DNA of 64,000 nt, from contig NZ_JAJHIZ010000002.1 in NCBI RefSeq assembly GCF_021538615.1, positions 372,001 to 436,000 of the forward strand. Reading direction: 5' to 3'. Of the stretch, positions 4,286 to 47,604 are shown piece by piece. The notes below the pieces were generated by a model. The model made no database searches, was not told the DNA's origin, and was given only the letters and a program-made list of their open reading frames with translations. Position 1 is the stretch's first letter. Each line of letters opens with the position of its first letter. Source of the stretch: Niabella agricola (GTDB taxonomy: Bacteria > Bacteroidota > Bacteroidia > Chitinophagales > Chitinophagaceae). The position numbers were made by a program, and so were the translations under genes.

Positions 4286-5566
4286 TTAGAACCTGATCCG
4301 GTTTAGCAGCGTCGCTTTGAGCTGGTTATATCTTGCTAGGTTCAATTGATTGGGTGTGCCATAAATACTTCTTGTTTTATCGGCATTAACCGAAAATATT
4401 CCCGATGCCTTTGTTTTATTGGTTATTGAAACGAGATTGGTTTTAATCTTCGAAACTCCATTAGATATGGTATTGTTGTATAAAATCAAGGAGTCGATTT
4501 CAGAAGCGCCATTTGTTACAATAAACAAACCGGATTTGGACTCAGGGATGCCAGATGATTTGGTGGACTTCGCCCCGTTATTCAATAGTCTGTTGGCGGA
4601 AATAATACAAAGAGTAGCATTGTCCACACTAATGCCGGAGCTGTAATTTTGTTCGCAGGTGTTGCTGTCTATCAGTACGTTGGCACAGCGGCTAATCGTT
4701 ATTCCCATATCACCTCCGTCTTTTATAGAGTTGTTTTTGATGTGTAAAAAGTTGACTCCAAAACAGGAGATTTGGTCATATGTGCCGCCCGCATGTGCTT
4801 GGGCGGCATTGCCTACAAATGAATTTCCTTCTATTATGACATAGGAGTGCCGCTTGTCTGTTACATTCTTAAAGTCAAAATGCAGAGGATATGCATTCTT
4901 CATTTCGCTAAATCTGTTATTAGCGATCTTTACAAATGAACAGCTATCCACAAAAGTGACTCCTCCGGTAGCATTGAATGTGTTGTCTGTTAATTTTAAC
5001 TCAGAGGATGCAAATATTGTAAGAATGGCTCCCATGGGGGACCGGGTATTGTTAAATCTGCAGTTTTGAATTGTTACATCCTTACAGTTTCTTAAAATAA
5101 GAGGTGTTTTAATGTTGAAGGTGCAATTTGTGAATCTGATCTTAGCTTTATAGAAGGTAGCAATGTTGCTTATTTGAACTGATTGGTCATTTTGTGTGAT
5201 TTGTAAATCATTGATTTCGGCTGCAATGTCGGGTGTGGCATTGTAGAACAGGTTGTTTTTTACCTGGTCCCCGGTTAGGATGGTGGCTCCTTCTTCTCCC
5301 TGAATTATAAAATCAAAATTAACCACTACTTGTTTATTGATGAGATAGTTTCCTCTGGGTATAAAAACCACGCTGTTCTTTATTTTGCTGGCACTGTTAA
5401 GCGCGTTCATCAGGGGAAGGTAATTGTCAAATTGGCCATCTCCTTTTGCTCCGAAATCCAGTAAGTTAATTCTGACTGTGGGTTTGTGGATTACAGGCGC
5501 AGCAAAGAAGGTGCCGGAATGTAATGCGAAGAGGAGGATGAGTATAAAGCGTAACGATTTTTTCAT
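4286..5566 (-). CDS. Secreted right-handed beta-helix protein (pectate-lyase-3-like)
   Basis: A 426-aa protein with an N-terminal signal peptide (MKKSLRFILILLFALHSG then FFAAP). The N-terminal block INLLDFGAKGDGQFDN with a downstream VVFIPRGNYLI is the opening of the pectate_lyase_3/GH28-like beta-helix fold. The rest is a run of parallel beta-helix rungs rich in Asn, such as LKITDN-, VKIANN- and LIDSNT-type turns. Such proteins act in the periplasm or at the surface as polysaccharide lyases, hydrolases, epimerases or binders. Its place inside the Wzx/Wzy operon, between polymerase and GT4, suggests processing of this glycan. No catalytic residues can be confirmed by eye. Confidence 0.75.
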   Translation of the reverse strand: MKKSLRFILILLFALHSGTFFAAPVIHKPTVRINLLDFGAKGDGQFDNYLPLMNALNSASKIKNSVVFIPRGNYLINKQVVVNFDFIIQGEEGATILTGDQVKNNLFYNATPDIAAEINDLQITQNDQSVQISNIATFYKAKIRFTNCTFNIKTPLILRNCKDVTIQNCRFNNTRSPMGAILTIFASSELKLTDNTFNATGGVTFVDSCSFVKIANNRFSEMKNAYPLHFDFKNVTDKRHSYVIIEGNSFVGNAAQAHAGGTYDQISCFGVNFLHIKNNSIKDGGDMGITISRCANVLIDSNTCEQNYSSGISVDNATLCIISANRLLNNGAKSTKSSGIPESKSGLFIVTNGASEIDSLILYNNTISNGVSKIKTNLVSITNKTKASGIFSVNADKTRSIYGTPNQLNLARYNQLKATLLNRIRF

Positions 5567-39002: not shown

Positions 39003-39887
39003 TTAAACTATATTTAGCCGCGGAAAGCGACCTGCCTCTTTAAATATAAGAGAGCTAATCTCTTTTAATTCCTGTATCGCCCGACTCACTTTCTGCCTCA
39101 CGATTTCCAGCTGTGCATATCCAACCTCAAAATCTGCATCATACCTTGCCGAGCAATAGGACTTTTGAAGCAGCCTGAAAGCTTCCTGTTCTTTTTGTGT
39201 TGCACCCCAAAAATCGGCTGCAATGCCTGGAGCTAAAAAGCTGAGGTATTGATTAAGATGGTTGATGTTATGAATGTGCAGCTCCAGACCGGTTTGGGAT
39301 TTTATAAAGGCCGTTAATAACAATTCTGTAGCCAAGTGATACATAAAAAGCGCCAACCGGTACTGTTTCCTTACGGTAAAAAGTTCTGCACCGGCAAGGT
39401 ATTCATTACAGAGATCAAAACACTTTTGAAATGCTTTTTTATCCGTGGCCGGAATAATTCCTACCACGGTTTCTTTTTTCCATTCTTCCAGTTCGGGGTT
39501 AGTATTACAAATAAATGGGGCGTTTGATAAAACGGTTAAAGCAAAAGAATCCTTTTCATTGAACCAACGTACAAAAGTGCTTGTTTGCATTACAATACAA
39601 CTTACCTCAGTGGACGAGTTACATTTTTGTTCAATTTCGTCCTGGTACATTTTGTGCCGCTTATCGTCGCCGGTAATCAATGTCAGCAGCCAAAATGCTG
39701 ATGTGCGTGCGCCAGTACCGCATTCCGGCATAAATATGTTCTGAGCTGTATTTACTTTTTTGCCTAAAACAAAGATGGTGTCCACCTGCACAATTTTGGT
39801 AATGGAGGCCACCACCTTTGTGGCAATGGCTTTATCTACATCAGTCAGATAAAGCGCTTTATGGTTAGCAACGGTTTCTTCGTTCAT
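39003..39887 (-). CDS. HEPN-domain protein with N-terminal nucleotidyltransferase-like region
   Basis: A 294-aa soluble protein. Residues about 15-140 resemble a divergent minimal nucleotidyltransferase (IVQVDTIFVLGKKVNT then FWLLTLITGDDKRHKMY). Residues about 160-285 are a HEPN-type helical domain (CNEYLAGAELFTVRKQYRLA, LFMYHLATELLLTAFI, INHLNQYLSFL, YCSARYDADFEVG). MNT/HEPN pairs form toxin-antitoxin or RNase systems, and here both halves are in one chain. I could not confirm the catalytic R-x4-6-H of HEPN RNases. The stop of the upstream 148-aa gene lies 2 nt before this start, so the two are co-translated. Confidence 0.7.
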   Translation of the reverse strand: MNEETVANHKALYLTDVDKAIATKVVASITKIVQVDTIFVLGKKVNTAQNIFMPECGTGARTSAFWLLTLITGDDKRHKMYQDEIEQKCNSSTEVSCIVMQTSTFVRWFNEKDSFALTVLSNAPFICNTNPELEEWKKETVVGIIPATDKKAFQKCFDLCNEYLAGAELFTVRKQYRLALFMYHLATELLLTAFIKSQTGLELHIHNINHLNQYLSFLAPGIAADFWGATQKEQEAFRLLQKSYCSARYDADFEVGYAQLEIVRQKVSRAIQELKEISSLIFKEAGRFPRLNIV

Positions 39888-39889
39888 GG

Positions 39890-40336
39890 TTAGCTGTTTT
39901 TAGTATGCCGGGGTTTACGAAACCATTTTTTAAACCACCAGGTTTGGTGTTTATCCCGCCATTTGGCGTACCGGTCTACCATTTTACCATTACTTTCCCG
40001 TGGAAACAGCAGACCAACGGCATCCATTTCTTTAAAAATTTGGCGGATGTCGGCTTCTGAATAATATTCTTGTCCGTAGCCGTGTGCAATAAAGTAATTG
40101 ATGAGGTGTTCTTTGGCGGCGTCACGACCCTCACGTTTCCAACTGCCGCAGGACAGGTCATCCATAAAATCAGTTAGGACCTCCTGTGGCGTTACCCCCA
40201 TCAGGCGGCAGAGCAGCAGGAATTGATACGGTAGAATGAAATTAAAATCAGCAAAACGCTCATAGGCCCCGGTTTGCCACTTTAGTTCCGGCATTGGCTT
40301 GCGCTGTTTTTGTTTGGGAGTGGGTTTCTTTTTCAT
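39890..40336 (-). CDS. Conserved-type hypothetical protein co-transcribed with the HEPN gene
   Basis: A 148-aa basic protein. A Lys/Pro/Gln-rich start (KKKPTPKQKQRKP) is followed by FADFNFILPYQFLLLCRLMG, VTPQEVLTDFMDDLSCGSW and a C-terminal basic Trp-rich tail (HQTWWFKKWFRKPRH). Such proteins occur in Bacteroidota mobile elements. The function is unknown and no domain can be named. It is the first gene of the leftward pair with the HEPN gene and is divergent from the XRE regulator 147 bp away. Confidence 0.6.
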   Translation of the reverse strand: MKKKPTPKQKQRKPMPELKWQTGAYERFADFNFILPYQFLLLCRLMGVTPQEVLTDFMDDLSCGSWKREGRDAAKEHLINYFIAHGYGQEYYSEADIRQIFKEMDAVGLLFPRESNGKMVDRYAKWRDKHQTWWFKKWFRKPRHTKNS

Positions 40337-40442
40337 AGTTTTTGCATTTGTGCCCTAAATCTCCACCTGCTGCGGCCGCTATCCTAACTTAAAAGGCGAT
40401 AATTTATTGGGAAAATGAGGTATTTTAGCAGGGCGATTTATT

Positions 40443-40450
40443 TATCTTTG
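40443..40450 (+). promoter_or_regulatory. Predicted -7 element (TATCTTTG) for the XRE gene
   Basis: Exact TAnnTTTG match 33 nt upstream of the XRE ATG. The nearest TTG upstream (40407-40409) is too far for a canonical -33. Confidence 0.4.
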
Positions 40451-40483
40451 AAAAACGCCACAAAGGCATAAAAATCAAATCTT

Positions 40484-40888
40484 ATGGAGAAAACAATACA
40501 TCAGGGTAGAAATGTGAAGCGGTTCCGGGAAATGCTTGGCATAAAGCAGGAAGCGTTGGCTGCTGATTTGGGTGATGACTGGAACCAGCGCAAAATATCG
40601 CTGTTGGAGCAAAAGGAAGAAATTGAAGAATCGTTATTGAAACAAATTTCAGATGTATTGAAAGTGCCAGTGGAGGCGATTAAGAATTTTGATGAGGATG
40701 CCGCCATTTCTTACATAAATACCTTTAACGATAATAGTAAAGGTGACTTTAATTATAAATGCACTTTTAATCCCATAGATAAATGGGCTGAAGAAATTGC
40801 TGAAAACCGGAAGCTGTATGAGCGCCTGTTGCAGGCGGAGAAGGAGAAAATGGAATTGTTGCAGAAGTTGCTGGAAAAGGTGAAGTAG
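40484..40888 (+). CDS. XRE-family helix-turn-helix regulator with C-terminal coiled coil
   Basis: A 134-aa protein. Residues about 8-66 form an XRE HTH (VKRFREMLGIKQEALAADLG then KISLLEQKEEIEESLLKQIS). The C-terminal 45 residues are a Glu/Lys-rich coiled coil (ENRKLYERLLQAEKEKMELL), probably for oligomerisation. Divergent from the HEPN pair and 36 nt upstream of a truncated ORF, it may repress either. This regulator type is common in Bacteroidota mobile elements. Confidence 0.88.
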   Translation: MEKTIHQGRNVKRFREMLGIKQEALAADLGDDWNQRKISLLEQKEEIEESLLKQISDVLKVPVEAIKNFDEDAAISYINTFNDNSKGDFNYKCTFNPIDKWAEEIAENRKLYERLLQAEKEKMELLQKLLEKVK

Positions 40889-40924
40889 TGTTGCTTCTTT
40901 TTCAAATATTTACATTATTTCACA

Positions 40925-41044
40925 GTGATTAACTTCTTAGAACGCGATAATAGACTTCTATTTTTCTATCAGCCTGAAGACAAGGAATATAACTGGATTA
41001 GCGAACGTTTAAATGTAAGTATCCCTAAAAACCAGACAGTTTAA
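40925..41044 (+). pseudogene. 5' fragment of a gene truncated by the IS3 element
   Basis: A GTG-initiated frame encodes about 30 protein-like residues (INFLERDNRLLFFYQPEDKE then YNWISERLN). It enters the left end of the IS at 41014 and stops at 41042-41044 after ten IS-encoded codons. It begins 36 nt after the XRE stop, so it was probably the second gene of that operon. The rest of the gene is not found on the other side of the IS. Original function unknown. Confidence 0.6.
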
Positions 41045-41079
41045 AATTAGAGAGATTTACTAAATTTAAACTGTAAAAA

Positions 41080-41370
41080 ATGAAAAAGACAAGATTCACA
41101 GAGACACAGATTGTTTCAGCCTTAAAGCGCCAGGAAGGCGGTATACCGACCAAAGAACTCTGTCGTGAGCTGGGCATATCCGAAGCCACTTTCTACAATT
41201 GGAAGAGTAAGTATGGCGGCATGGAAGCCTCAGATGTGAAGCGCATGAAAGAGTTGGAAGAAGAGAATGCCCGATTAAAACGCATGTATGCGAACCTGGC
41301 AATGGATAACGAGATATTAAGGGATTTGTTCTCAAAAAAAGGCTGGGCCCTGCCACCAAAAGGCAATTAA
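41080..41370 (+). CDS. IS3 family transposase OrfA (HTH_Tnp_1)
   Basis: A 96-aa DNA-binding subunit: RFTETQIVSALKRQEGGIPT, then the HTH (ELCRELGISEATFYNWKSKY), then a leucine-zipper coiled coil (MKELEEENARLKRMYANLAM). It binds the IS ends. A run of seven A (41334-41340) near its 3' end lies in the A-AAA-AAA register needed for -1 frameshifting into OrfB, which would make the OrfAB transposase. Confidence 0.95.
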   Translation: MKKTRFTETQIVSALKRQEGGIPTKELCRELGISEATFYNWKSKYGGMEASDVKRMKELEEENARLKRMYANLAMDNEILRDLFSKKGWALPPKGN

Positions 41371-42188
41371 GCAAGGAGCTTGTAAAGGAGCGAAAGATAC
41401 CGGTGAGCCGGGCCTGTAAGATAATCTCATTACCACGATCCCAATATTATTATTCGTCAGTCAAGGACGACTCAGCAGTAATAGAAGCCTTGCAGGAGTT
41501 GGCATTTGCCCATCCATCGTATGGCTTCAGAAAGCTCTTTGCATATTTACGGCGCTCAGGAAAAAACTGGAACCATAAAAAGGTTTATCGTGTGTATAAG
41601 CAGTTAAAACTTAACAAAAAACGCAAGGGTAAAAGAAGGCTCCCGGCACGTATAAAACATCCCCTGCAACAACCCGAAACGGTAAATAAAGTATGGAGTA
41701 TGGATTTTATGAGCGATAGCAAGACAGGTAACCGGAAGTTCAGAACCTTCAATGTAATCGATGATTGCAGCCGGGAGGCATTGGCTATTGAAGTGGATAC
41801 CTCAATATCTTCAAGGCGGGTGATCAGGACACTCAACAGGGTTATCGAAAGCAATGGTAAGCCCATGGCCATAAGAGTGGATAATGGTCCGGAGTTTACC
41901 TCAAAGGATTTTGAGCTGTGGGCGAAGGAACAAGGGATTAGTATCCTGTATATCCAACCCGGAAGGCCTATGCAAAACGGCTATATTGAACGATTTAACC
42001 GACTTTACAGGGAAGCTGTATTGGATGCATATTTGTTTTTTGACCTCTACCAGGTAAGGGTACTAACACAGGAATGGATGGAAGAATACAATCACAAAAG
42101 ACCACACGAGTCACTGGACAACCTGACACCGCTTGAATACAAAAAGTTGGCTGGTGAAAAGAAAAATATTCAACTTATAGCTGTCTGA
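41340..42188 (+). CDS. IS3 family transposase OrfB (DDE integrase domain)
   Basis: Catalytic part of the transposase, in the -1 frame to OrfA. An independent start could be the GTG at 41403; the frame is open from the A7 slippery site, so OrfAB is the likely active product. Residues include the HTH_21 region (YGFRKLFAYLRRSGKNWNHK) and the rve DDE core: W-S-M-D-F in KVWSMDFMSD, RVDNGPEF, and the E in QNGYIERFNRLYREAVLD. HKRPHESLDNLTPLEY ends the domain. The stop lies 17 nt before the right IS end. Confidence 0.93.
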   Translation, partial: RLGPATKRQLSKELVKERKIPVSRACKIISLPRSQYYYSSVKDDSAVIEALQELAFAHPSYGFRKLFAYLRRSGKNWNHKKVYRVYKQLKLNKKRKGKRRLPARIKHPLQQPETVNKVWSMDFMSDSKTGNRKFRTFNVIDDCSREALAIEVDTSISSRRVIRTLNRVIESNGKPMAIRVDNGPEFTSKDFELWAKEQGISILYIQPGRPMQNGYIERFNRLYREAVLDAYLFFDLYQVRVLTQEWMEEYNHKRPHESLDNLTPLEYKKLAGEKKNIQLIAV

Positions 42189-43363
42189 AAAAGGGGGTAC
42201 TTACAACGATACTTTTCAATACTGTCAAGCTTTATTTTTAGTTCTTTCAGCTGATCGTTCATCTTAGTAAACTCATCTAAAGCACTTTTACTATTCAAAT
42301 ATTCAAGTCTGGCATCTTTCAGCTTGCCCAATCGCTTAGATTTCGCAACTATTTCAGAAAGTTTTTTCTCGAAACCCAACTTTTCTTTCAATAAACGTTG
42401 GGATCTATTGTCCAGTATTTTTTTATTAAACTCCTCAACATCGGCCAACTGTTTTATAACAGCGTCTGGCAGGCTGACCATTGCCTCCTTATACAACTGT
42501 TCGATACGCTTCTTGGGAATATCGGGGGTAATATTTAAACTTTTTTCAATATTGGAAAGTGCTATTTTAATGGTTGCTGCTTTATTATCGAGTGCTTTAA
42601 TTTGCAATTTTAATTCATCTGCCTCTCTCACTACTTCATGATAATCTTCTGCTACTTCAAATTTTGATAGACCTTGTTCAAGCTTTTGAATTTTCACCTT
42701 TAAATCGACAACATCAATTTCAAAGTCATCATCTTCATTCTGTTCAAAAAAAGACTTTATAATTGTATCTTTTTCAAATGCCTTCCGCATATCCTCAATC
42801 TTATCAAACTCATCTTTTAAGTTAAACTTCTTCAAAACAAGTGAAACATCAAGTCCTAAAAGAAAGGCATTGTTAATAATCTTTTGAAATTCTTGCTCTT
42901 CAGGGATAAAATTGTCGAAGGAGTTATAGCTGGCTTTTCGGGGACGAATAAACCGTGGTAGCAATGAACGAAAAGTTACGTACTTTGTATTCTCTGGAAT
43001 TTCGAAAACCCTTGAAGAAAGAAAGTCTGTATATTCTTTGAGCGTTTTCTCTTCATTATTTAAATAAATTACTCCTTGATTATTACACTTGCGTGTAGCA
43101 GTAAATAAAATATCGCTAAGTTCGAACTGCAATGAAAACTCCCAGTCATTCAGTTTTGCTTCAAACTCAGGGTTCTTTTGCGAGCCCAAGCAAAAATTAA
43201 TTAAGGCAATAGATAATGATTTCCCAACGCTATTGTAAGTGTCCTTTTTATTTTTTGTATAGTCATTGTTATGCCTTTTCCCCACAATAAGAGAAAGGCC
43301 TATCCTGTTAAATTCAATTGTTTTGAACCCAGGATTATTTGCTGATAGTTTTATTAACCGCAT
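42170..43363 (-). pseudogene. ABC-three-component system ATPase, C-terminal half removed by IS3
   Basis: A 397-aa frame. About 386 residues are native and the last 11 come from the IS end. The N-terminus opens RLIKLSANNPGFKTIEFNRI, and a Walker A of SMC/RecN type lies at residues 43-49 (YNSVGKS). A long coiled coil follows at about 200-385. ATPases of this type continue with the returning coiled coil, an ABC signature and Walker B, all missing here, so ATP hydrolysis should be lost. It overlaps the 88-aa middle component by 29 nt. The N-terminal half matches what I know of DUF2326-type ABC-3C ATPases. Confidence 0.75.
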
Positions 43364-43601
43364 TATAAATTAGTCCTTCAGAATTAATATCAATAGCTCC
43401 AATAATAAATAAATAATTTAAAGCTAAAACAACATTATCAAAACCATGATACGAAAAAGCCTTTTTTGTATCATTTTGCTTGCCAACTTTAAACCAAAGC
43501 TGATCAACCGATTTTGGCCCATCATTTAGGTATTTCAAAAGATATGCTCCCAGCCCAATTAAAGATTCTGATATTCTAATATGCTTTGATGGTAGAATCA
43601 T
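43335..43601 (-). CDS. ABC-three-component system middle component
   Basis: An 88-aa soluble protein (MILPSKHIRISESLIGLGAY then VVLALNYLFIIGAIDINSEG). The pattern is that of a small winged-helix protein of the middle-component type encoded between the effector and ATPase genes in ABC-3C loci. It overlaps the effector by 4 nt and the ATPase by 29 nt, so the three are translationally coupled. The identification rests on size, order and the characteristic SLIGLG and N-Y-L-x-x-x-G-A-I patterns. Confidence 0.7.
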   Translation of the reverse strand: MILPSKHIRISESLIGLGAYLLKYLNDGPKSVDQLWFKVGKQNDTKKAFSYHGFDNVVLALNYLFIIGAIDINSEGLIYNAVNKTISK

Positions 43602-44557
43602 TGAAACAAAGTTTGTTGTTGTTTTAGAGGGGGCTCTTCAAAAATATCACAATAGCTGAAAAAGTAGGCCATTAGAACAAATACAGCATCCTGATAAACC
43701 TTCCCTTGTTTAGGATAAGCCTTTTTTGCAATATCAAAAAAGACTAAATCATTTTTACTATCTGAATCTGGGATTTCCTGTATAGCGTCTTTATATAATT
43801 TCGAAAACGTATTCTTGAGATCATCCTTAGCAAAGGTGCTGTTTATTTTAAAAAAATCTTTAAGAGCTCCATCTTGATAAGAACCATAACGCAAAAATGT
43901 TGCTGCCGGTGAGCTGAGGGAATTAAATACTATTTTTTCTTCGAAGTCAGGATTTACTGGAAAATTCTCGGGTGATGCGCCGTCTTTTAAACTTATTAAA
44001 TACTCGATAACTTCATTAAGATTTGACACATTTAAGCTTATATTTTCTGCTGTGGGGATTTTGCCAAGTACATCTTCAATATTACTGTGCGGTAATTTTA
44101 GAAAGATATCTTCCAAATGTTGGCTTAAAAATGGCTTACATTTTACCCCGGCATGATTTTCTTCTATTTTTGTTAATTCCGGATGTAAGGAGGGATATGT
44201 GCCTTGATACTTATCATTTAATACAAAATTAAATTCTAAAATTGGCGTTACTTTGGTATTCCAATATGCGTATAGGCCATTGAAATCGGTCACAAGCTTT
44301 TCAATCGTGTCCTTTTCTTTGTGTGAAAGATTTTCCGGAGCATATACTTGATAATACTGCCCCGTTGATTTGATAAATCCATCATTTTTTCTATCACCAA
44401 ATTGCCCCTGTGGCTTAATCTGAATGAAATCAATATTATGCAGCCTCATTATTTTTGAGAAGAAGTCTTCATAATTTTGCCCATTTCTTTTGTAAATCTC
44501 CAATTGAAATAGCTTTCGAGCAATATATAGATCATCAGCAGTTAAGGTTACAAACAT
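43598..44557 (-). CDS. ABC-three-component system CTD-containing protein with restriction-endonuclease-like N-terminus
   Basis: A 319-aa protein. Residues about 25-75 (FFSKIMRLHNIDFIQIKPQG, GDRKNDGF, YYQVYAPE) resemble an Mrr-like restriction-endonuclease fold, in which G-D-x-x-x-D and the Q-x-K strand are partly kept. The usual Lys is replaced by Tyr (QVY), so nuclease activity is doubtful. The remaining helical part would be the ABC-3C C-terminal domain that links the effector to the ATPase. First of the three ABC-3C genes, 26 nt after higA. Likely role: a sensor or effector in anti-invader defence (inference). Confidence 0.7.
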   Translation of the reverse strand: MFVTLTADDLYIARKLFQLEIYKRNGQNYEDFFSKIMRLHNIDFIQIKPQGQFGDRKNDGFIKSTGQYYQVYAPENLSHKEKDTIEKLVTDFNGLYAYWNTKVTPILEFNFVLNDKYQGTYPSLHPELTKIEENHAGVKCKPFLSQHLEDIFLKLPHSNIEDVLGKIPTAENISLNVSNLNEVIEYLISLKDGASPENFPVNPDFEEKIVFNSLSSPAATFLRYGSYQDGALKDFFKINSTFAKDDLKNTFSKLYKDAIQEIPDSDSKNDLVFFDIAKKAYPKQGKVYQDAVFVLMAYFFSYCDIFEEPPLKQQQTLFQ

Positions 44558-44583
44558 TGCAGTTAATTTAGAACATATAAAAT

Positions 44584-45030
44584 TTAAACATACGCCAATT
44601 CTTTCCTAGTGTTCATTACACTTGCATTTCTTAAATGTGCATTTTCAGGTACCGTTAATTTATAGGGACGGTTAAGCGCCTCCTGCGAAATTTTAAAACG
44701 GGCGGCCAGCTTACGGATCACTTCTTTTGAAAGCCCTTTTTTATAGTTCAAAATATCAGAAATATATCCTTTGCTTATATTTAAAACGGGCACCAGGTCT
44801 TTGGCCTTAAGATCATGTTCTTTCATAAGAGATTGCAAAAGTTGTATAGGGTTTAACTCTTCAAAAGTATTATGCACCTCATCCCATTTTTCAATAAGCA
44901 GGGTAAGCAATGCAATTTCATCTTTTGTATCCCGGTCTTTATTGCCGGAAAACAACAATTGCTCCAATGCGTTACAATAGTCCCGGTACTGGGTTTTACT
45001 GGTAATTACCTTATATTTTAATGCTGCCAT
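44584..45030 (-). CDS. higA: HigA-type antitoxin (XRE HTH)
   Basis: A 148-aa antitoxin. A helical N-terminal region (TKDEIALLTLLIEKWDEVHN) is followed by an XRE HTH at about residues 68-122 (LMKEHDLKAKDLVPVLNISK then GYISDILNYKKGLSKEVIRK). It neutralises the HigB-type toxin encoded 12 nt upstream and probably represses the operon through the perfect inverted repeat upstream of higB. The gene order toxin-antitoxin is the HigBA order. Only 26 nt separate it from the ABC-3C genes on the same strand. Confidence 0.9.
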   Translation of the reverse strand: MAALKYKVITSKTQYRDYCNALEQLLFSGNKDRDTKDEIALLTLLIEKWDEVHNTFEELNPIQLLQSLMKEHDLKAKDLVPVLNISKGYISDILNYKKGLSKEVIRKLAARFKISQEALNRPYKLTVPENAHLRNASVMNTRKELAYV

Positions 45031-45042
45031 AATTGCTTTTCT

Positions 45043-45375
45043 TTAATAGTCGCTTCTGGTGTATTGTTCATCATTTGCACATAACTTATCATACTGTGCA
45101 TGCGTGCCAATCCAGCAAATGAATAAATGCATTTGTTTATCTCCAAAAGCATATTTGCCAATCATCCTGTATTTATTACCGCCAATATCAAATACCACTC
45201 TGTTGCTGCCATTGCCCAGCAAATCAGCACTGGGAAATGTGGCTAAAATATCCGCCGGATTGTCCCAATCTCCATACTTTACTTTTATAAGCCATTCTGC
45301 AAATGAGGTCCTGCTTTGAGCATTATGTCTTACAAAATCTTCTATGGTTTCTTTTCTTATCAGGTGAACTTTCAT
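45043..45375 (-). CDS. higB: HigB-type mRNA interferase toxin
   Basis: A 110-aa RelE/ParE-fold toxin of the HigB family (COG4680 type): KETIEDFVRHNAQSRTSFAE, then FPSADLLGNGSNRVVFDIGG, NKYRMIGKYAFGDKQMHLF and a C-terminal IGTHAQYDKL. Such toxins cleave mRNA at the ribosome. It is the first gene of a leftward operon with higA and, by spacing, the ABC-3C genes. An 11-bp perfect inverted repeat lies 20 nt upstream of the ATG. Confidence 0.92.
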   Translation of the reverse strand: MKVHLIRKETIEDFVRHNAQSRTSFAEWLIKVKYGDWDNPADILATFPSADLLGNGSNRVVFDIGGNKYRMIGKYAFGDKQMHLFICWIGTHAQYDKLCANDEQYTRSDY

Positions 45376-45395
45376 AGCAAAATTACGTTTTTTTA

Positions 45396-45426
45396 TTTAA
45401 AAGTTCACATTTAGAGAACTTTTAAA
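45396..45426. promoter_or_regulatory. Predicted HigA operator: perfect inverted repeat TTTAAAAGTTC-N9-GAACTTTTAAA
   Basis: Arms at 45396-45406 and 45416-45426 are perfect 11-bp complements with a 9-bp spacer, beginning 20 bp upstream of the higB ATG. Centre-to-centre spacing of 20 bp (about two helical turns) fits a dimeric HTH repressor. A TAATTTTG (-7-like) box lies at 45378-45385 between it and the ATG. Confidence 0.75.
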
Positions 45427-45554
45427 TACTGCAAGCTAACCAATTAAAAACAATAGCACTGCTAAAATACTTAGTTTTATTAAAAGCAGATAAGTAAGTT
45501 ATACACAGGCCGTTAAAACTTGTTATTCCACCACTTGAACAAAAAACGGTTCTT

Positions 45555-46682
45555 TTAAAACAAAGCATCATTTAACAGGTAGCTGGTGCTTCTGCCACCC
45601 GCAGGCTCTTTCACCAACAGTTGCCGGTTTATCAGGTCCTGGATATCCCGTATAGCTGTGTCTTGGGAGGTTTTGGCAATTTTTGCCCATTTGGAGGAGG
45701 TGAGCTTACCGGTAAATCCATCCAGCAATTTATTCAGCATCAGCTTTTGCCGGTCGTTTAAAGTATGCGTGGCCGGCTGTTTCCAAAAGGTTGCCTTCTT
45801 CATTACCCCGGCTAGCGTAGCGCCTGCTGCCTCTATGGATCGTTCCAAACAGCCCAGGAACCAATGGATCCATGGGGTTATATCCATCCGGCCTTTTTGG
45901 GTTGCCTCCAGTATATCATAATAGGCCTTACGTTCAGCACGGATCTGGGTAGACATGCTGTAAAACCGCTGCCGCGTTTCATCTGCACGGGCCAGCTGCA
46001 TATCCGTTATAGCCCGGGCAATACGGCCATTACCATCATCAAACGGGTGTATCGTTACAAACCATAAATGGGCAATAGCTGCTCTTAATACCGGGTCTGT
46101 TTTATCCGGAGCATTAAACCAATCCAGGAATGCTTTCATTTCAGCCGGAACCTGGTCTGCATCCGGTGCCTGGAAATGCACGGTCTCTCGCTCCATAGGG
46201 CCGGATACAACCTGCATAGGATCATCAGGCAGGTTATCCCGCCATTGGCCGGTTACGATCCGGTGCATACCACTGCGCCCTGCTGGGAACAAAGAGGCCT
46301 GCCAGCCAAAAAGACGGTCTTCAGTAAGTAACTCCTGATATTGCTGGGTAGCATCCAGCATCATTTCTACAACGCCCTCCACATTACGATCGGCAGGAAC
46401 TAAACCGGCTATATCCATTCCCAAACGCCGGGCTACAGAAGAGCGCACCTGTTGAGCATCTAATAGCTCACCCTCTATTTCACTGGATTTGAGCACATCT
46501 AATGTAAGGGTTTGCAAGGTAGCTTCCTCCCGCAGGGTAAACCCCAGGTTTTCCATCCGCCCTAATAGCCGGCCCTGTTGATGGCGTACGCCTGCCAGCA
46601 CGGAAGCTATTTCTCCCGTGTTCCATTGAAAATGAGGCCATTGGGTCAATTGATAGATATAAATTCTACGCATTTTATGCAA
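45555..46682 (-). CDS. Fic family protein (AMPylator-type, class II, with N-terminal inhibitory helix)
   Basis: A 375-aa protein. The DUF4172-like N-terminus (IYIYQLTQWPHFQWNTGEIA) is followed by the inhibitory motif SSEIEG at residues 66-71, which fits S/T-x-x-x-E-G/N of class II Fic proteins. The Fic active site HPFDDGNGRIAR is intact at 212-223. The C-terminal winged helix is at about 305-370 (LNDRQKLMLNKLLDGF then SQDTAIRDIQDLINRQLLVK). It transfers AMP from ATP to a target hydroxyl and can be self-inhibited. Start at Met1 or at Met4. Part of the conflict-gene block, upstream of higBA. Confidence 0.93.
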   Translation of the reverse strand: MHKMRRIYIYQLTQWPHFQWNTGEIASVLAGVRHQQGRLLGRMENLGFTLREEATLQTLTLDVLKSSEIEGELLDAQQVRSSVARRLGMDIAGLVPADRNVEGVVEMMLDATQQYQELLTEDRLFGWQASLFPAGRSGMHRIVTGQWRDNLPDDPMQVVSGPMERETVHFQAPDADQVPAEMKAFLDWFNAPDKTDPVLRAAIAHLWFVTIHPFDDGNGRIARAITDMQLARADETRQRFYSMSTQIRAERKAYYDILEATQKGRMDITPWIHWFLGCLERSIEAAGATLAGVMKKATFWKQPATHTLNDRQKLMLNKLLDGFTGKLTSSKWAKIAKTSQDTAIRDIQDLINRQLLVKEPAGGRSTSYLLNDALF

Positions 46683-46731
46683 CGAATATATTAAATATTC
46701 TCCGCATTAGCAATTTTTATACGCAAAAAAC

Positions 46732-46758
46732 GCGAAGAATAGCGCTGTTGTTCTTCGC
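46732..46758. repeat. Perfect 8-bp inverted repeat GCGAAGAA-N11-TTCTTCGC upstream of fic
   Basis: Arms at 46732-46739 and 46751-46758, starting 50 bp upstream of the fic start. It may be an operator for the Fic winged helix or a hairpin terminating transcription from upstream; there is no clean T run. Confidence 0.5.
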
Positions 46759-46918
46759 ACACACTCTGAGTATAATATGAATTTTCATCAATGGCTCGTT
46801 GCTTTCTGTAATTTCCTGGCTTTAGATTGAAGCCCCTTGGGCTTGTTTTATAATGCAATAGGCCTATAGCCCGTAGCCTCCTTTTTTCTTTTTCTAATGT
46901 TCCGGTAGTATTCCCGCT

Positions 46919-47191
46919 CTATTTGTGATGTAGCATAGTCCTCTTGTAAATGAGCTTTTCTTTAACCCCTTCAACGGAACGAAGAGGAAATAAGATTTTA
47001 TAAAATTCTGATTGTTTAAAACTCATAGGGATCGAGAGCACCGGGCATTCAATCTTCATAATAATTCCATAGGACGTCGATTCTTTAAAATACCGCTTAA
47101 CACCATTCTGCACACCAATTAATAAAAGGTCTGTTTTATTTTCGATGCAGTACTTATATATAAAAACAAACCGCATCACCAACACGAGCAA
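46919..47191 (-). pseudogene. Remnant of a universal stress protein (UspA C-terminal part)
   Basis: A 90-aa frame whose middle reads YKYCIENKTDLLLIGVQNGV, then KRYFKESTSYGIIMKIECPV and LSIP. This resembles the C-terminal half of Usp domains (nucleotide loop G-x2-G-x9-G(S/T), then a CPVL strand), but the glycine loop is degraded. The N-terminal half of a Usp domain is absent. Most likely a decayed fragment at the edge of the accessory block. Confidence 0.55.
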
Positions 47192-47203: not shown

Positions 47204-47452
47204 CTATAAAACATAAGGACACCCTGCACCAGCACATTCATATTGTGGCCAGCCGGATTGGCTATTAGCGGCAAGGTGATTTAGCTGCCCGGTAAAATCT
47301 AAAACTTCTTTGGGCAATGTTTTCTGCCGGCTGGCGATATGGCTGTTAAAAGCTGCTTCAGTTATTTCCAGTTCCAGTGCGGAGCAAGCCACCCGAAAAC
47401 GGTAGCTGCGTTTAACTGGTTTGTTTGGCCTGTCGCCTTTGTTTTTTTTCAT
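47204..47452 (-). CDS. Small hypothetical basic protein, possibly a MobC-like remnant
   Basis: An 82-aa protein with a basic N-terminus (KKNKGDRPNKPVKRSYRF) and the segment LPKEVLDFTGQLNHLAAN, which recalls the end of MobC/relaxosome accessory proteins where a G-x-N-L-N-Q motif is expected. The motif is not completed here and the tail is unusual. Either a truncated mobilisation protein or an unknown small protein. Next to the Usp remnant. Confidence 0.35.
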   Translation of the reverse strand: MKKNKGDRPNKPVKRSYRFRVACSALELEITEAAFNSHIASRQKTLPKEVLDFTGQLNHLAANSQSGWPQYECAGAGCPYVL

Positions 47453-47604
47453 TTGGTGTATTCAAAGCAGGAGCCAGTGCATATTGGAAACTGGCTAAAT
47501 AGTTTTATGCTGTATACTATTTCTTAGGCAGGAAGTTCTGATTGCTGAAGGGAGAGGAGAAGGATGGTAAATTTGTAATTAAGAAAGAGGTTATTTGATT
47601 AAAG

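Follow-up and report, generated by a model that had tools for sequence, protein, structure and literature searches.

ABC-three-component (ABC-3C) systems are placed by a review (PMC10586767) in the Lamassu superfamily and combine an SMC-like sensor, a small middle protein and an effector in which a variable N-terminal enzyme is joined to a docking C-terminus. The layout of DdmABC is said to match that of ABC-3C (PMC12409362), and the type II Lamassu or DdmABC systems (LmuA-LmuC-LmuB) follow the same three-part plan. Here, we describe an ABC-3C operon in a 64,000-nucleotide stretch of Niabella agricola (contig NZ_JAJHIZ010000002.1, positions 372,001 to 436,000), hereafter the window. In this operon, one copy of an IS3-family insertion sequence (IS) lies between 386 remaining codons of the ABC-3C ATPase gene and 29 codons of the Shedu gene sduA, and the lost halves of both genes were not found in the assembly. 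Judged from the sequence, the junction is one IS-linked deletion that truncates two defence genes. The effector of the same operon starts with a putative nuclease domain whose catalytic lysine appears to be displaced. The features of the operon and the junction are as follows.

43598..44557, minus strand: effector component with a C-terminal domain (CTD), intact, 319 aa (CTD10 PF20275 E 1.8e-12; PDC-M68A E 1.2e-9)
44063..44557, minus strand: N-terminal domain of the effector with predicted restriction endonuclease (REase) fold, aa 1-165
44381-44383, 44348-44350, 44342-44344 and 44297-44299, minus strand: residues D59, Q70, Y72 and K87 of the N-terminal domain
43637..44026, minus strand: CTD10 of the effector, aa 178-307 (Pfam match)
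43335..43601, minus strand: middle component (MC) MC6, intact, 88 aa (PF20293 E 2.1e-17)
42206..43363, minus strand: SMC-like ABC ATPase, N-terminal 386 codons (PDC-M68B positions 2-399 of 581, E 6.4e-62; alignment)
43217..43237, minus strand: Walker A YNSVGKS, ATPase aa 43-49 (sequence)
42170..42205, minus strand: 11 IS-derived codons and a stop, joined to the ATPase fragment
41014..42205, plus strand: IS3-family element, 1192 bp, with TG...CA ends (orfA 41080-41370, orfB 41403-42188)
40925..41013, plus strand: 5' fragment of an sduA-like Shedu gene, 29 codons, truncated at the opposite end of the IS (identity to the genome G011)

The proteins were compared with the Pfam, PADLOC and NCBIfam profile libraries, with hhalign for profile-profile comparison and Foldseek for structure comparison. 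In Pfam, the effector matches CTD10 with 48.4 bits (cut-off 28.1), and the 88-aa protein matches MC6 with 63.3 bits (cut-off 27.2) and MC7 slightly below the cut-off (26.5 against 27). The PADLOC match of the ATPase to PDC-M68B scores 207.9 bits. At these scores, a chance origin of the ABC-3C family matches is excluded. The PDC-M68A profiles cover the C-terminal part of the effector alone (aa 175-309) and are taken as a second support, because the Pfam CTD10 model also matches some ATPase coiled coils. The genes overlap by 4 nt (43598-43601) and 29 nt (43335-43363), and the N, G and K of the Walker A motif are invariant across an alignment of eight ATPases, window included. The effector and the MC had no match in NCBIfam, and both NCBIfam matches of the ATPase are well under their cut-offs. 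The effector also has weak Pfam matches to VMAP-M1 (19.2 bits, cut-off 25) and to CTD11.

The locus thus has the gene order, the overlaps, the CTD10, the MC6 and the Walker A-bearing N-terminal half of the ATPase in common with the ABC-3C systems that PADLOC lists as PDC-M68. It differs in that the C-terminal half of the ATPase (DUF2326, with the signature and Walker B) is deleted, and it is therefore a remnant of an ABC-3C member, not a working one. An earlier note, made from the letters of this DNA, had proposed an ABC-3C system, and its coordinates, lengths (319, 88 and 397 aa), strand, overlaps and YNSVGKS motif are confirmed in the sequence. The identity and gene order that it proposed are borne out by the CTD10, MC6 and PDC-M68B matches, and the 88-aa and 319-aa proteins, rather than falling into unrelated families, both belong to ABC-3C families. 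We consider it likely that the window genes are an ABC-3C operon of the CTD10-MC6-DUF2326 ATPase subtype, dead and located in a variable defence site. No paper on the CTD10/MC6 subtype was recognised in the literature, judged by titles and abstract openings; the term "middle component 6" does occur in PMC10868621.

None of the window proteins matches the PADLOC profiles of LmuA, LmuB or LmuC at E <= 1, while LmuA and LmuB profiles do match their relatives. In particular, relatives of the N-terminal effector domain match the LmuA profile PDLC03852 with E-values of 2e-6, 1.6e-6 and 0.0027, and two domain proteins outside ABC-3C match a PADLOC LmuA profile. Menshen was considered and rejected; it is described with DUF262 and OLD parts and another plan, and no Menshen profile matched the window proteins.

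The ATPase gene ends at the IS. The orfB of this element encodes a DDE transposase of IS3 type (NCBIfam NF033516, 224.3 bits, cut-off 160) and orfA a helix-turn-helix (HTH) protein, which places it in the IS3 family; Pfam matches to HTH_Tnp_1 and rve were also found. Six copies with 98-100% identity, window copy included, are present in the 6.26-Mb genome of N. agricola (G000; 3 contigs, completeness rating 99.98%). The flanks of the window copy are TAAA on the left and ACGA on the right, i.e., there is no matching 4-bp target duplication; perfect 4-bp duplications flank the copies L005-L007. The C-terminal half of the ATPase was found neither across the IS nor elsewhere in the G000 assembly, and a control query with the C-terminal half of the Pinibacter ATPase recovered both copies of a genome of the same genus, G015, and none in G000. 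The DNA to the left of the IS is sduA, without any ATPase remnant. A simple IS insertion was rejected because the 4-mers on its two sides are not the same and the ATPase gene has lost its 3' half. Two further copies, L003 and L004, likewise lack matching target duplications, hinting at further IS-linked rearrangements in this genome.

The 127 bp to the left of the IS (40887-41013) are 100% identical to G011:C1:2264000-2264126. Matches to this stretch are present in two of 17 genus genomes, G000 itself and G011, and there are none in G015. In G011, it occupies the corresponding site, with the HTH gene on one side and HigBA on the other, and contains the start of a 419-aa open reading frame (ORF). 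This ORF is SduA (Pfam SduA_C E 7.6e-39, PADLOC SduA E 1.5e-149). The second gene cut at the junction is thus SduA-like and belongs to Shedu, a system separate from ABC-3C; the SduA_C nuclease domain, present in the G011 gene, is absent from the 29 codons left in the window. The remainder of sduA was not found in G000, whereas the same query recovers G011 as well as a relative in G015 with 54% identity. Two IS3 copies, one in each gene, may have been present, and recombination between them would have removed the intervening DNA. Alternatively, a single copy could have made an adjacent deletion, and we do not choose between the two routes. The earlier note had described the ATPase as cut by an IS3 element and as stopping 11 codons into it. 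The truncation stands as described, but the account was incomplete, as the C-terminal half is gone by deletion and a Shedu gene is truncated as well.

In the alignment of eight ATPases, the 397-aa window protein follows the family up to residue 386 and then continues with the 11 IS codons, and Pfam finds no DUF2326 in it. Relatives were sought in 196 related genomes. Thirteen of these, G000 included, match PDC-M68B, and effector relatives at E <= 0.001 occur in G000 and G015 only. Two intact operons with the same gene order are found in G015 and one in Pinibacter aurantiacus (Chitinophagaceae). All three ATPases are 581 aa long with DUF2326 at 432-573, so these closest homologues do not end naturally near residue 390. 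The window effector is 98% and 96% identical to its two G015 orthologues, and the ratio of nonsynonymous to synonymous substitution rates (dN/dS) for the three genes against the two G015 copies is 0.024-0.10, where the MC values depend on 4-11 changes. These low ratios are consistent with constraint up to a recent break, the age of which is not datable from them. The window copy is very probably dead; the earlier note had called the system probably dead, and the anatomy of the truncated ATPase supports this.

Homologous trios are present on plasmids of Enterobacter, Hymenobacter, Yoonia, Streptomyces and Cupriavidus. RefSeq names their products "ABC-three component system protein" and "middle component 6", except for the third Cupriavidus gene, which is hypothetical. 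The Cupriavidus plasmid ATPase (L044:6273-8198, 642 aa) matches PDC-M68B up to profile position 460 only, lacks a match to DUF2326 and has an unrelated end; it is possibly another damaged copy. Among viral contigs, 26 stretches fit the pattern for close ATPase relatives and none was confirmed, and no meaningful sequence match was found in the PDB. The Pfam CTD10 model also matches the coiled coil of ATPases, at about aa 273-408 and with E-values down to 4e-30. This is seen in five distinct ATPases (L046, L048, L049, L050 and L023/L035) of the ten scanned beyond the window, and not in L008, L009, L021, L039 and L044. A duplication of the docking domain into the ATPase was considered and rejected. 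A Pfam model that mixes two regions is likelier, because hhalign shows no relation between the coiled coil and the effector CTD.

The N-terminal domain of the effector has a predicted REase-like fold with the PD-(D/E)XK core, in line with the restriction-endonuclease-like domain named in the earlier note. The motif assignment is our own, based on predicted strands. Residues were compared in a first set of 24 hand-picked sequences, window included, from which the near-duplicates L009, L021, L024, L036-L038, L053, L055 and P0001, and also P0005, were left out. A wider set was then made by searching the ORFs of 86 loci with a hidden Markov model of the domain; 41 ORFs matched, 40 were aligned, and 27 non-redundant sequences (<90% identity, window included) were retained. 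In the first set, the motif II D59, K87 and a Y or F at the position of Y72 are present in 24/24 sequences and Q70 in 23/24. In the wider set, D55, D59 and the Y/F are found in all 27, K87 and D91 in 26, and Q70 in 25. The motif II aspartate and the motif III glutamine are thus present, while the place of the motif III lysine is taken by Y or F throughout and K87 sits in the next helix (81-102).

Q-x-Y/F is therefore the family norm at motif III. For several PD-(D/E)XK families, a shift of the motif III lysine into the helix that follows the third core strand has been described (PMC1913061). The same source describes a displaced lysine or arginine in this helix for DUF506, DUF790 and DUF1626, which are likened to our domain (with K87) by description and not by sequence, and which differ from it in that its motif III is Q-x-Y/F. 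As D59, Q70 and K87 are kept, their pattern suggests that the catalytic lysine was displaced and not that the domain has decayed. Nuclease activity is predicted, and a sensor role is not favoured. The earlier note had taken QVY in place of Q-x-K as a sign of a sensor, which is probably wrong.

The domain is also found outside the window's close relatives. Sixteen viral-contig loci carry it (two pairs are alike), and ten of these have MC and ATPase matches. At L051, the contig edge follows directly after the effector, and at L060, L062, L063, L065 and L066 there are no such matches. At one of the ten loci with such matches (L061:4977-7977), the effector gene is convergent with its MC and ATPase genes on the opposite strand, i.e., they do not form one operon. 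The L065 and L066 proteins (1267 and 1281 aa) have the domain joined to a PIN-TPR-GreABC domain. In a Peduoviridae Klebsiella phage (L043:4977-6020; same protein in L062), it is cargo between virion morphogenesis and baseplate genes. In a Salmonella plasmid protein (L045:4992-5819), the REase-fold domain is accompanied by a weak HEPN_Apea match (21.4 bits, cut-off 24.4), and AlpA and integrase genes lie in the surrounding stretch. Among the matching plasmid records, 91/122 are from Klebsiella, of which one region was read. Among those listed, the effectors beside L010-L013, L015 and L022 start with other domains, so not all systems of the group carry this module. We suggest, with about even confidence, that the domain is a PD-(D/E)XK nuclease family that lacks its own Pfam model in the copy searched and has its catalytic lysine in the helix after the third strand. 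It would then be a tradeable killing module of ABC-3C operons, a P2-like phage, an island that we label P4-like, Klebsiella plasmids and PIN-TPR-GreABC proteins.

Several observations weigh against this reading. At position 30 (motif I), 13 of the 27 sequences have E and 14 have Q. Two sequences, Streptomyces (L050) and L016, have A instead of Q70, and L016, the most remote member (E 2.1e-9), has N in the K87 column and a lysine one column on. Foldseek gave no match at E <= 0.001 for either predicted model, and the nuclease role, the proximity of K87 to D59 included, is predicted from residues and a modelled fold. The REase-fold domain may instead be a dead nuclease that serves as a sensor of DNA or protein or as an adaptor, with the killing done by something else, which we take seriously as a possibility while doubting it. 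In its favour, the motif III lysine is found in 0/27 sequences, and another domain could be the killer where the module is joined to the weak HEPN match or to PIN. Inactive enzyme domains are moreover reported as a feature of several related conflict systems (PMC7159879). However, a domain that only binds need not keep D59, K87 and Q70, and these are kept from Bacteroidota to Proteobacteria, D59 and K87 also in Streptomyces. The other two genes of the trios that were read are the MC and the ATPase, and the N-terminal domain therefore remains the effector candidate.

For the junction, two other explanations have to be weighed against an IS-linked deletion that killed the system. The truncated ATPase might still work as a shortened regulator together with the effector and the MC, both of which have intact genes and a low dN/dS. 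Walker A and the greater part of the coiled coil are still present in the fragment, and the loss of the C-terminal half is not unique, given the missing DUF2326 match in the Cupriavidus ATPase. However, the window protein ends at an IS junction, its three closest orthologues are full-length, and none of the other 13 matches in the 196 genomes is near 397 aa. Their open frames are at least 573 aa, apart from those of G059, G043 and G056, which lie at a contig end or close to one, and a 178-aa frame in G004 whose match is marginal (E 6.9e-4). We find a shortened regulator hardly credible. An assembly artefact at the repeated IS is very unlikely. It could be argued from the six near-identical copies, three of which (window, L003 and L004) lack the matching flanks that L005-L007 have, but after a wrong join the missing halves would be expected in another place, and neither that of the ATPase nor the rest of sduA turns up in this nearly complete assembly.

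By analogy with Lamassu and ABC-3C, two ATPase subunits of an intact system would close on ATP, the Walker A half of one against the DUF2326 half of the other. The ATPase may sense an abnormal DNA structure of the invader, a step taken from analogy only, which counts against the scheme. Through the CTD, the MC would either free the effector or assemble it, and the REase-fold domain would then cut DNA. In this domain, D59 and Q70 would be part of the metal site, and K87 would stand in for the lysine that motif III lacks. With the DUF2326 half missing, the ATP sandwich would not close and the window copy would be unable to signal. The intact effector and MC genes suggest that the effector is harmless without the ATPase, or that it is not expressed.

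The junction lies in a site with conserved borders, which was compared across four genomes; its HTH gene is also present elsewhere. The borders in the window are as follows.

40484..40888, plus strand: HTH-like gene, left border of the variable site (HTH_3 19.6 bits, under the cut-off of 23)
44584..45375, minus strand: HTH antitoxin-like gene and HigB toxin gene, right border (HigB_toxin PF09907 E 3.1e-24; HTH_3 23.4 bits, cut-off 23)
45555..46682, minus strand: Fic-family gene beside HigBA, conserved right border, in G014 too (Fic PF02661 65.6 bits, cut-off 24)

The window is colinear with G015 on both sides (42206-46947 at 95%, 39100-40886 at 92%), and between the two blocks G015 has 5086 bp that are absent from the window. 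With G011, it is colinear at 39100-41013 (91%) and 44595-46040. Within the borders, G015 carries ABC-3C and five larger ORFs (of this other cargo, 1/5 genes scanned matched Pfam, namely MUG113/T5orf172, and 0/4 scanned matched PADLOC), and G011 carries sduA and others. In G014, an HEPN_LA2681 protein and others are bordered by the HTH gene and by the Fic gene, which in the window comes after HigBA. Judging by these sequence comparisons, the site resembles a variable defence site. Within its conserved left border, the window also encodes a 294-aa protein with a C-terminal HEPN domain (39003-39887, Pfam). On the other side, a degraded stretch (47204-47464) that matches G014 in pieces (L080, about 4918-5166) adjoins a relaxase-like gene, as judged by a look at the sequence, and this neighbourhood may be the remnant of a mobilisable element. 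In G001, a 733-aa protein (L081:10496-12694) encoded close to a further copy of the HTH gene matches PADLOC PDC-S46 with E 1.5e-252.

The broken operon itself is ordinary, and the ABC-3C type is already known. The locus shows how a single IS-linked deletion within a variable defence site can silence a pair of defence systems together, and intact versions of ABC-3C and sduA exist at the same site in sister genomes. For the widespread effector domain, the reading as a dead nuclease is replaced by a testable prediction on one conserved lysine. If the prediction is true, effectors of ABC-3C systems that were dismissed as "Q-x-Y, inactive" would be active.

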